NCBI RefSeq assembly: GCF_014466955.1
Contig: NZ_AP023396.1
Span: 5,580,001 to 5,644,000, forward strand
DNA length: 64,000 nucleotides
From: Nocardia wallacei
GTDB taxonomy: Bacteria > Actinomycetota > Actinomycetes > Mycobacteriales > Mycobacteriaceae
Direction of reading: 5' to 3'
Below the pieces are notes generated by a model. It was not told where the DNA came from. It was given only the letters and a program-made list of their open reading frames with translations, and searched no databases. Position numbers and translations under genes: made by a program. Position 1 is the first letter of the stretch; the number at the start of each line of letters is the position of its first letter. This document shows, in pieces, positions 34,965 through 45,326 of this stretch.

Positions 34965-37400
34965 CTACCACCGCGTCCGCGGCCGCACCTGGTTGGCCAG
35001 GTCGACCAGGCGGTAGCGGTGCATGCGGTCGGCCGCGGTGCGGGCCAGATCGCGCAGACAGGCTTCGACGCCGCGCCGCAATCCCGGCACGGTGAGCGGG
35101 AATCCGAGCAGTTCGGCGTCGGGCACCCGCGGCCGCCCGCCCGCGCGCAGCCATTCCAGCGCCGCCCCGACCACTACCACCCGAAGTTGCAGCGCGCGCG
35201 GCGCGTCGGGCACGTCCTCGAGCCGGGCCGCGGCCTCGGCCAGATCCTGTTCGGTCACGTCGGCGACCGGACGCGACACCAGCAGCAGGCAGCCGGTCAG
35301 ATGCGCGACGCTGTGGTGGCGGGATTCGGCGGGAACCTCGTCGAGCACCGCGACGGCCTCGGTGATCTCGCCGTCCGCGGCCAGCCGGCGGGCCAGGCCG
35401 AAGGCCGCGCTCACCACACCGTGATTGGTCCGCCACACCCGCCGGTAGTAATCGGCGGCCGCGCGGTGCCAGAACTCGACGTCACCGGACTCGCTCAGAT
35501 GCTGGAGCACGAGTTCGGCGGTGGCGGCCAGGGCCAGGGCCGGGGCGATCTCGCCGGGCAGCATCGAGTGCACCGCGTCGAAACTGCTGTAGGCGCGCTC
35601 GAAGCGACTGTCGAGCAGCGCCGCGACGCCGGTGTACCACTCCAGCCGCCAGTCCGCCTCGTACCGCGGCCGCAGATCCGCGAGCAGCCGCAGCGCGGGC
35701 ACGATCTCGCCGAGCTCGAGATGCGCGCGCACCGCGGTGAGCGTGCCCTCCAGCTGGAACGACGCGGGTTCGGCGATGACGCCGGCGGCGATGCGATCCC
35801 GGGTGCGCCGCAGGGTTTCCAGCGCGTGCTGCGGGTCGCCGTGCAGCAGCGTGGACAGCAGATCGGCGCTGGGGTCCTCGCTGTCGATGAGCGGCACCGG
35901 CAGCGCCGCGCAGACCCGCCCGGCGTCGAGGGTGGGCATCCGCTCCGTGCCGTCGAGCATGCCGTCGGTCTGGCCGATCACCGTGTCTATGCCGAAATCA
36001 CCACGCAGCGAACCGAATTCGACCGAAGCCTGCGGATGTTCGCGACCGGTCTCGCAGGCCATCACCATCCGCAGCACGCCGGTGAGCTGACAGTACATCG
36101 AATAGGTGGACGGGAACCGGCGCTGCGGATCGGGGTCGGTCGCGCGGCAGAGCAACCGGTACAGGGCCGGGTGCGCGGCCAGCAGCGGGTCGTCCTCCGG
36201 TGCGGGAATCCCGGGGAGGAAGTGCCCGCCCTTGTCCCGCGGCAGGTCCAGCACCAGCGCGGCGAGCGTGCGGCCGACGGTGTAGATGTCGGACACGACC
36301 GTGGGCCCGGTGTCGGTGATCTCGGGCGCCTGATAGCCGGGGGTCCCGTAGATGCTGCCGTAGGACTCCATGGCCGCGACCGCACCCAGGTCGATGAGCT
36401 TGACCTCGTCCTCGCTCACCATGATGTTGTCCGGTTTGAGGTCGTTGTAGGACAGCCCGAACGAGTGCAGATAGTCCAGTGCCGGAAGCACTTCCATGAT
36501 GTACGCGATGGCCTCGGCGATCGGTATCCGGTCGGGCGCGCGCTCGTCGAGCACCTTCTTCAGCGACTGCCCGCCGACGTACTCCATGACGATGTAGCCG
36601 TCCTCGACGTCGCGCCGGGACTTGTGCTTGACGAAGTTGTGGATCTTCACGATGCCCGGATAGGCCACCTCGGACAGGAATTGCCGCTCCGCCAGCGCCA
36701 CCACGTGCGCCTCGAAATCGAGCGGATTCTGCAGCCCCTTGAGCACCACCCAGCGGTCGCTGACATTGCGGTCGACGGCCAGGTAGATCCAGCCCAGCCC
36801 GCCGTGCGCCAGACAGCCCTGCACCTCGTACTGCCCGGCCACCAGTTCGCCCGTTTCGAGCTGCGGCCGGAAGTTGAACGGCGAGTTGCACTTCCCGCAC
36901 ACCCCGGCCACCGCGCCGGGCTCGCCGTCGGCGGACCGGCCCACCGGGGCCTCGCATTTCCAGCAGAATCGCTTGGCTTCGGCGACCTCCGGGGTGGCCA
37001 GCACGGCCGACCGCGGGTCCACCGAGGCCACCTTGGGCATCTCCACCATGCCCTCGCCGAGGCGGCGCGGGCTGGGGCGCGAGCGGGCGCTGCGGCCGGA
37101 TCCGGCGTCGGCCTCGGCCAGCAGCCGCAGCTCCGCTTCGGTCGCCGACAGTTCCTGGCCGGCCGTGCCCGGGCCGTCGTCGTCCGCCGTGGCTCGCTCG
37201 GTACCCCGCGAGAACAATTGCGCGGGTTGGGTTCCCGACACCAGCTTGCCGGTCTGCGGACCACCGAACCGCTGCGCCGGATCGACGGGCCGCCCGGCGG
37301 ACCAGGGGTGCGCGTTGGCCGGAATCTCCGTGCCGCGCATACGCCGGTTGGCCCACGGGTGCGGCAACGGGTGGTCGGGCGTCCCGGACCGTTCCGACAT
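34965..37400 (-). CDS. pknG: Serine/threonine protein kinase PknG (811 aa)
   Basis: Soluble kinase. A rubredoxin-like zinc site (CWKC near residue 145 and CGKC near 165) precedes the kinase domain (about 190-440) with VVLKGL, the catalytic loop [10 protein letters not shown] and IDLGAVAAM, a DLG in place of DFG as in PknG. Residues 480-800 are TPR-like helices. The family phosphorylates GarA, which otherwise inhibits 2-oxoglutarate enzymes and activates or blocks glutamate enzymes including NAD-GDH. ATG 37400 has GGGAGG at good spacing. In M. tuberculosis glnX-glnH precede it; here an amino-acid permease does. Confidence 0.95.

Positions 37401-45326: not shown

Follow-up and report, generated by a model that had tools for sequence, protein, structure and literature searches.

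A 64,000-nt stretch of the Nocardia wallacei genome (NZ_AP023396.1, positions 5,580,001 to 5,644,000; hereafter, the window) probably carries a module of an amino-acid utilization regulon of Nocardia, controlled by a MerR-family regulator and made of duplicated genes, among them a copy of the kinase PknG without adjacent glnH and glnX genes. Its features are collected in Table 1. In the published model, as it is outlined in the portions of the reports used here, GlnH senses aspartate, glutamate and asparagine, GlnX relays the signal to PknG, and PknG phosphorylates GarA (PMC6069109, PMC8546545, PMC9769921); glutamate dehydrogenase (GDH) is inhibited by GarA (PMC8175468, in part).

Table 1. Features of the module and its surroundings (window coordinates)
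Feature	Position	Strand	Basis and remarks
Small, probably secreted protein, 3′ of the 28.5-bit palindrome	31892-32455	-	ORF; signal peptide judged by eye
Palindrome upstream of the small, probably secreted protein	32502-32521	-	Weight-matrix score, 28.5 bits
MerR-family regulator	33742-34473	-	Pfam PF13411, 71.5 bits; covariation with palindrome
pknG2 (PknG paralogue)	34965-37400	-	Pfam rubredoxin, kinase and TPR; PDB 2pzi match; paralogue search; tree
AnsP-like amino-acid permease	37525-39054	-	Pfam AA_permease; best NCBIfam model L-asparagine permease
Permease promoter, TTGATA-17-TACATT	39093-39121	-	Palindrome 39096-39115 in spacer, 25.1 bits
Palindrome upstream of SPFH gene	39208-39227	+	Weight-matrix score, 18.5 bits
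SPFH (Band 7) protein, double zinc ribbon	39261-40328	+	Pfam; divergent from permease, convergent with gdh2
gdh2, large NAD-glutamate dehydrogenase paralogue (180-kDa class)	40410-45326	-	Pfam; PDB 7a1d match; trees
gdh2 stretch homogenized with gdh1, approximately the catalytic core	41970-43052	-	Sliding DNA identity, core tree; edges approximate (60-codon steps)
Degenerate palindrome upstream of gdh2	45383-45402	-	Weight-matrix score, 11.4 bits
Small protein, N-terminal zinc-ribbon match weak and below cut-off	45480-46286	-	Immediately upstream of gdh2
Discoidin/F5-8 type C domain protein	46283-47395	-	Pfam

A preliminary description had placed a pknG, an amino-acid permease and a large NAD-GDH gene on one strand of the window and had noted no garA there. 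Both points hold. ORF and Pfam analyses find pknG2, the permease gene and gdh2 intact, all on the minus strand, and the window, with none of the genome's 13 FHA matches, is without garA. One of the 13 lies at 4.77 Mb in a GarA-like gene with the motif ETTSVF, which we take to be the GarA motif. PknG2 has the rubredoxin, kinase and PknG TPR domains in full, and GDH2 has ACT1-3 with the helical motifs, Bac_GDH_CD and GDH_C in that order, aligning to PDB 7a1d over residues 44–1624 of its 1638. The permease scores 603.5 bits against the NCBIfam model PRK15049 (L-asparagine permease), under the cut-off of 773, and is not assigned to that family.

The preliminary description also compared these genes with their M. 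tuberculosis counterparts, as though the genes of that pathway had been brought together. This reading is not supported. The source genome (G000; 7.9 Mb, two contigs) has three PknG copies, i.e., that of the window, one at C1:985011 (62% identity) and one at C1:7386402 (56%), and two large GDH copies, that of the window and one at C1:6143558-6148414 (65%). Among named relatives, the closest PknG, that of N. wallacei, is 97% identical. The PknG gene at 7.39 Mb is the canonical pknG1, in the order nudix, glnX, glnH (a family-3 solute-binding protein), pknG, ackA, pta, where glnX is named by position and is without a Pfam match. GDH1, at 6.14 Mb, has genes for an ABC-F-type ATPase and an SSB next to it, as does Rv2476c. 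Outside the window, this genome thus has canonical orthologues of both pknG and GDH, and here too they lie far apart; the window's pknG and GDH are, by sequence comparison, diverged paralogues and not the M. tuberculosis-type pathway genes. The third kinase gene, pknG3 at 0.99 Mb, lies behind a permease gene 81% identical to that of the window, and a divergent MerR gene is present there.

The SPFH gene lies between permease and gdh2 on the opposite strand, so gdh2 is not co-operonic with permease-pknG2, and the three genes do not form a single operon. Likely, permease and pknG2 make up one unit, and gdh2 belongs to another, after the discoidin and zinc-ribbon genes. No terminator-like site was found between permease and pknG2 in a scan that gave five terminator-like matches overall versus 4.3 expected. 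The MerR gene is part of the cluster; it is found 0.5 kb past pknG2, with a DUF1707 gene (34608-34961, plus strand) in between. The small protein beyond MerR has relatives in several modules; a family search with it gave no convincing match.

At the other end, gdh2 and its two small upstream genes end an ESX-type secretion gene run. This run, which adjoins the module (window 47806-63902, and L282), includes eccA, eccB, FtsK-type, PE, PPE, WXG100-like, espG, ParA-like ATPase, eccD, subtilase and eccE genes, with Pfam matches for EccB, FtsK-type, PE, PPE, EspG, EccD, subtilase and EccE, and with WXG100 just under the cut-off. Elsewhere in the window, bacterial RNase P RNA occupies 1-264 at the left edge, and a single long ORF at 21904-25971 combines a phosphoribosyltransferase with an erythromycin-esterase domain. 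As nothing in the window other than RNase P reaches the Rfam gathering score, an RNA regulator was dismissed as a candidate.

The arrangement is widespread within the genus; the genus-wide counts that follow are lower bounds. A permease gene lies directly upstream (<1 kb, same strand) of at least 53 of the 150 listed PknG genes, in at least 48 of 78 Nocardia genomes. In at least 36 of the 78, a co-directional GDH gene is found no more than 16 kb upstream of PknG (in at least 33, no more than 5 kb), and the permease adjoins that PknG in at least 35 of those at least 36. Since the GDH-PknG order recurs in many Nocardia genomes, the grouping is not due to chance. Among the matches listed, the neighbourhood was not seen in 42 of the 78 genomes, and contig breaks explain some of these cases.

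Twenty modules were fetched, picked for proximity of GDH2 and PknG2 or for a known continuation; GDH2 and PknG2 are thus present in them by selection, and the discoidin, zinc-ribbon, SPFH and MerR genes were not selected for. The discoidin gene, the zinc-ribbon gene and the opposite-strand SPFH gene are found in all 20, in the window's order. Within the fetched stretches, PknG2 is present in 18 of the 20, the permease in 18 and a co-directional MerR gene in 17. One module has another MerR gene (L109) and two have none (L115, L122); these three stretches end early. The module at L119 is without a permease. In two genomes (L120 in G051, and G003), GDH2 matches begin near residue 560 and PknG2 matches near residue 97.

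Outside Nocardia, PknG is linked to neither GDH nor permease in any of 80 genomes (89 PknG entries, 14 genera), drawn from at least 102 non-Nocardia genomes with a listed PknG, 22 being left out. GDH is on the contig of PknG for 31 entries, at a minimum distance of 125 kb, and permease for 13, at a minimum of 42 kb; the other 58 entries have no entered GDH match on that contig and are weak negatives. The count leaves out 37 weaker GDH matches outside the genus (partial, 43–51% identity), none of them less than 340 kb from a PknG on the same contig. Another linkage count leaves out 13 permease matches of 52–55% identity, the nearest 226 kb from a PknG. In one other genus, extra glnX-glnH-pknG copies have a distant permease (32–33%) upstream (L215, L216, L224). 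The comparison of gene order among close relatives, for which the preliminary description had called, is favourable within Nocardia and negative in the 80 genomes of other genera.

A 20-bp palindrome with the consensus GTACCGTTANNTAACGGTAC fills the spacer of the permease promoter. The promoter was the sole sigma-70-type match in a consensus scan of 33500-47500; as 0.7 matches are expected in shuffles, it carries weight only together with the palindrome. Sites were scored with a symmetric weight matrix trained on the permease sites of 18 other modules. The scores of those 18 are not independent, and those of the window, GDH2, SPFH, post-MerR and permease-pknG3 sites are independent of the training. 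GDH2 is preceded by a site of at least 24 bits in 19 of 21 modules; the window's copy is degenerate, and L115 is without one. At the 12 permease-pknG3 loci, the permease palindrome scores 29–32 bits in six, is deviant in five (11–19 bits), including that of G000 itself, and is absent in L194. Unlinked AnsP-like permease genes have a site of at least 16.9 bits at 7 of 20 fetched loci, and the canonical pknG1 and GDH1 loci of G000 have no palindrome site. Overall, module loci (418 kb) have 69 sites of at least 18 bits, a figure that includes the 18 used for training, versus 7 in 604 kb of other fetched sequence. At the level of sequence, the common palindrome thus ties together permease-pknG2, SPFH and, in most relatives, GDH2. 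The physical module for amino-acid uptake, sensing and glutamate breakdown that the preliminary description had seen is accordingly borne out in its retained order and common palindrome, and not as a single transcription unit.

The genes might instead have stayed together by vertical inheritance only, as one inherited chromosomal region without joint function. The cluster does follow an ESX-type run in the window and an EccE gene in N. transvalensis and N. alni, and RibD and LuxR-type neighbours are often retained too. Yet the same palindrome occurs at several module promoters, and it accompanies such genes in other arrangements. In N. transvalensis (L168), GDH2 lies on the far side of the cluster and still has a site of 24.4 bits immediately before it; a GDH of G019, at a different type of locus, is accompanied by a MerR relative and palindromes; and permease-pknG3 occurs at a second place, with the same element, of about 30 bits, at half of its loci. 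We consider inheritance without joint function quite improbable.

The palindrome is also found beyond the module. Among the matches listed, the pattern with at most one mismatch occurs 31 times in G000, as compared with 5 for a reversed control, and the corresponding counts are 29 and 10 in G062, 18 and 2 in G044, 13 and 1 in G073, and 25 and 6 in G023. In G053 the pattern is barely more frequent than the control among the matches listed (13 and 8), and four genomes without a listed module gave 10 and 5, 14 and 3, 11 and 15, and 9 and 6, again among the matches listed. Of the 31 sites in G000, 10 reach 22 bits, and none does so in 12 Mb of simulated sequence. These strong sites precede permease-pknG2, the gene of the small protein beyond MerR, the unlinked AnsP-like permease gene at L226 and a gene with homologues named sodium/glutamate symporter, where 74 bp separate the site from the ATG. 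Two more sites precede other small, secreted-looking proteins (L278, L286), and one precedes a YdcZ-type membrane protein (L280). Another lies a few hundred bases upstream of the ESX gene eccA (L282), and two have no clear target (L279, L283). An ORF of G053 that by eye resembles EccA (L290) has a site at about 170 bp upstream. Inspection of the two eccA loci and of the G019 locus was prompted by the sites they bear, which makes them a biased choice. Strong sites partly precede genes without an evident link to amino acids.

Which protein binds the palindrome? The linked MerR has the HTH domain of its family and falls below the cut-off of every NCBIfam model. Among its best 120 hits, those named by organism are nearly all from Nocardia. 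Its closest paralogue in the genome (59%) adjoins the permease-pknG3 locus; a MerR gene is found at both types of permease-pknG locus. MerR relatives also lie within about 3 kb of palindromes at L284, L292 and L293, the last of which (in G019) is beside a GDH. At these three loci (L284, G000:C1:5668000-5677000; L292, G043; L293, G019:C76), small proteins with weak, below-cut-off WhiB matches (that of L292 by eye) are present nearby. In 28 loci, MerR His27 goes with a G at palindrome base 6 in 22 of 22, and MerRs with another residue 27 go without G6 in 5 of 6 (Fisher p 6e-5, uncorrected for relatedness; the non-His27 loci represent at least two groups of the PknG tree and L104). L195, with no parsed palindrome, is not in the table. 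Because base 6 covaries with a residue in the HTH, the linked MerR is the best candidate binder, and it likely binds the palindrome. Classical MerR activators act on promoters with a 19–20 bp spacer. Here the dyad sits in the promoter spacer, but the spacer is of 17 bp; the overlap of palindrome and spacer suggests that MerR acts as a repressor.

Alternatively, regulation could be shared, with the palindrome bound by another regulator, e.g., the LuxR-type ATPases encoded at 26118-31087. Genes of this type adjoin many modules and further palindrome sites (L288, L289, L292). Against this, none was seen in the stretches, short ones, at the permease-pknG3 loci, L284 and L293, all of which have a MerR gene, and base 6 changes with the MerR residue. 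Binding by another regulator is therefore regarded as unlikely, and the linked MerR is retained as the candidate.

PknG2 has the catalytic Lys, NDLKPxN, DLG and two CxxC motifs; among module-type PknGs, VLKG, DLG and CxxC are kept in 22 of 22 sequences and NDLKPxN in 21. In a tree of 61 PknG sequences, the module copies form one group of 22 (SH-aLRT 98), and the permease-pknG3 copies with one further sequence form a group of 13 (SH-aLRT 100); the two groups join as one (SH-aLRT 100). The tree is without L109 and L122, as their fetched stretches end before PknG. GlnH lies beside 24 of the 26 PknGs outside the two permease-linked groups, among them additional copies from two genera other than Nocardia, as well as another type within Nocardia. 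At the 21 module and 12 permease-pknG3 loci, neither GlnX nor GlnH was found in the fetched stretch, i.e., the signalling operon of pknG1 is not reproduced there. The two exceptions without GlnH, L200 (G038) and L223 (G091, on a 4.6-kb contig), are both basal branches of the permease-linked group. L200 has EccE, discoidin, zinc-ribbon, MerR and SPFH genes adjacent and is without permease or GDH2; it follows that SPFH and MerR may be older partners of the permease-linked PknG lineage than permease and GDH2.

The tight pairing of permease with pknG2 or pknG3, in place of glnX-glnH, could mean that PknG2 is a permease-coupled (transceptor) kinase, in which the permease takes over the receptor role of GlnX and itself signals to the TPR domain. 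We find this doubtful. A permease tail of the type (Y/I)TG(Q/E)(F/Y)PV, considered as a pknG-specific TPR ligand, occurs equally in pknG-linked and unlinked permeases, so a pknG-specific tail motif is absent, and some module-type PknG2s are without a close permease relative adjacent (G069 C120, G064, G077). In addition, the TPR invariants are retained: PknG2 keeps 45 of 54 in the TPR versus 76 of 83 in the kinase domain. Loss of TPR constraint in PknG2 or PknG3, which was also considered, is not seen, and since these invariants are largely kept, loss of the GlnX contact is not indicated. The module PknG is better regarded as a copy standing apart from receptor genes and probably placed under transcriptional control.

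The two GDHs share one catalytic core. Trees from 20 genomes place GDH1 and GDH2 in two groups, kept apart at the N-terminal as well as at the C-terminal part. The GDH1 ends group with the GDHs of other genera, and some GDH2 branches are long, that of G070 most of all. The trees exclude G051, in which roughly the first 560 residues of GDH2 are missing. In the DNA tree of the core (residues 800–1130), GDH1 and GDH2 of the same genome are sisters in 12 of the 20 genomes. Identical GDH1-GDH2 DNA runs of at least 150 nt, and up to 475 nt, are present in 10 of 21 genomes; outside such runs, 60-codon steps are mostly 40–80% identical. The pattern is that of repeated gene conversion, as read from the alignments, centred on the catalytic core, with the ends kept distinct; either selection or simple sequence similarity may confine it to this part. 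Repeated conversion of the core suggests that both GDHs are active enzymes. Several draft assemblies break inside the GDH genes at the near-identical core (window 41970-43052; GDH1 at L013).

We propose the following mechanism. The linked MerR would sit on the palindrome over the −35/−10 spacer, probably repressing transcription, and an amino-acid-related signal would relieve the repression. Relief would jointly raise PknG2, GDH2 and the import of asparagine, aspartate and glutamate (by AnsP-type permeases and a Na+/glutamate symporter). The single GarA would then be phosphorylated by PknG2, and its brake on the TCA cycle and GDH would be lifted. In this way, gene expression would raise PknG activity alongside the route of PknG1, which runs through the GlnH-GlnX receptor. 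A wider version has, in our estimate, about an even chance of being right. In it, Nocardia evolved a MerR-controlled amino-acid utilization regulon whose members are PknG2, GDH2, AnsP-type permeases, the Na+/glutamate symporter, small secreted proteins and the ESX secretion operon next to the module. One PknG copy would have become independent of the GlnH-GlnX receptor genes and would be governed at the level of transcription, and gene conversion would keep both GDH cores alike under different regulatory domains.

In the literature, as far as the reports used here describe it, the operon of PknG couples this kinase to a receptor for amino acids in the periplasm, and the Nocardia module would add a transcriptional arm. 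Neither permease-linked copies of PknG nor a MerR-palindrome regulon turned up in the literature searched. The extra Nocardia PknG copies are a natural experiment on whether the receptor or the amount of kinase sets PknG activity, and they also bear on whether a single GarA is enough for several kinases. With a defined palindrome and a candidate regulator, the regulon is open to direct testing. In the GDH pair, domain-limited gene conversion separates the constant part, catalysis, from the diverging ends.

With MerR-family regulators, the window's MerR shares the HTH and a palindrome placed inside a promoter spacer; it differs in the 17-bp length of that spacer and in scoring below all NCBIfam cut-offs. 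As for AnsP-type asparagine permeases, theirs is the best NCBIfam model for the window's permease, but with a score below the cut-off, so the protein is AnsP-like by sequence. Compared with the M. smegmatis enzyme L-GDH180 (PDB 7a1d/7jsr; PMC8175468, in the portions used here), GDH2 has the full domain set, but it is a second copy, its core homogenized with that of GDH1 and its ACT-type N-terminus and C-terminus distinct. Finally, the GlnH-GlnX-PknG-GarA/OdhI system of mycobacteria and corynebacteria, as presented in the parts of PMC6069109, PMC8546545 and PMC9769921 drawn on here, has the same PknG domain order and catalytic motifs, and likewise one GarA-like gene, a GDH of the GarA-inhibited class and an amino-acid theme. 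PknG2 differs in being an additional copy that lies beside a permease, a MerR regulator and GDH2, and not beside GlnX and GlnH.
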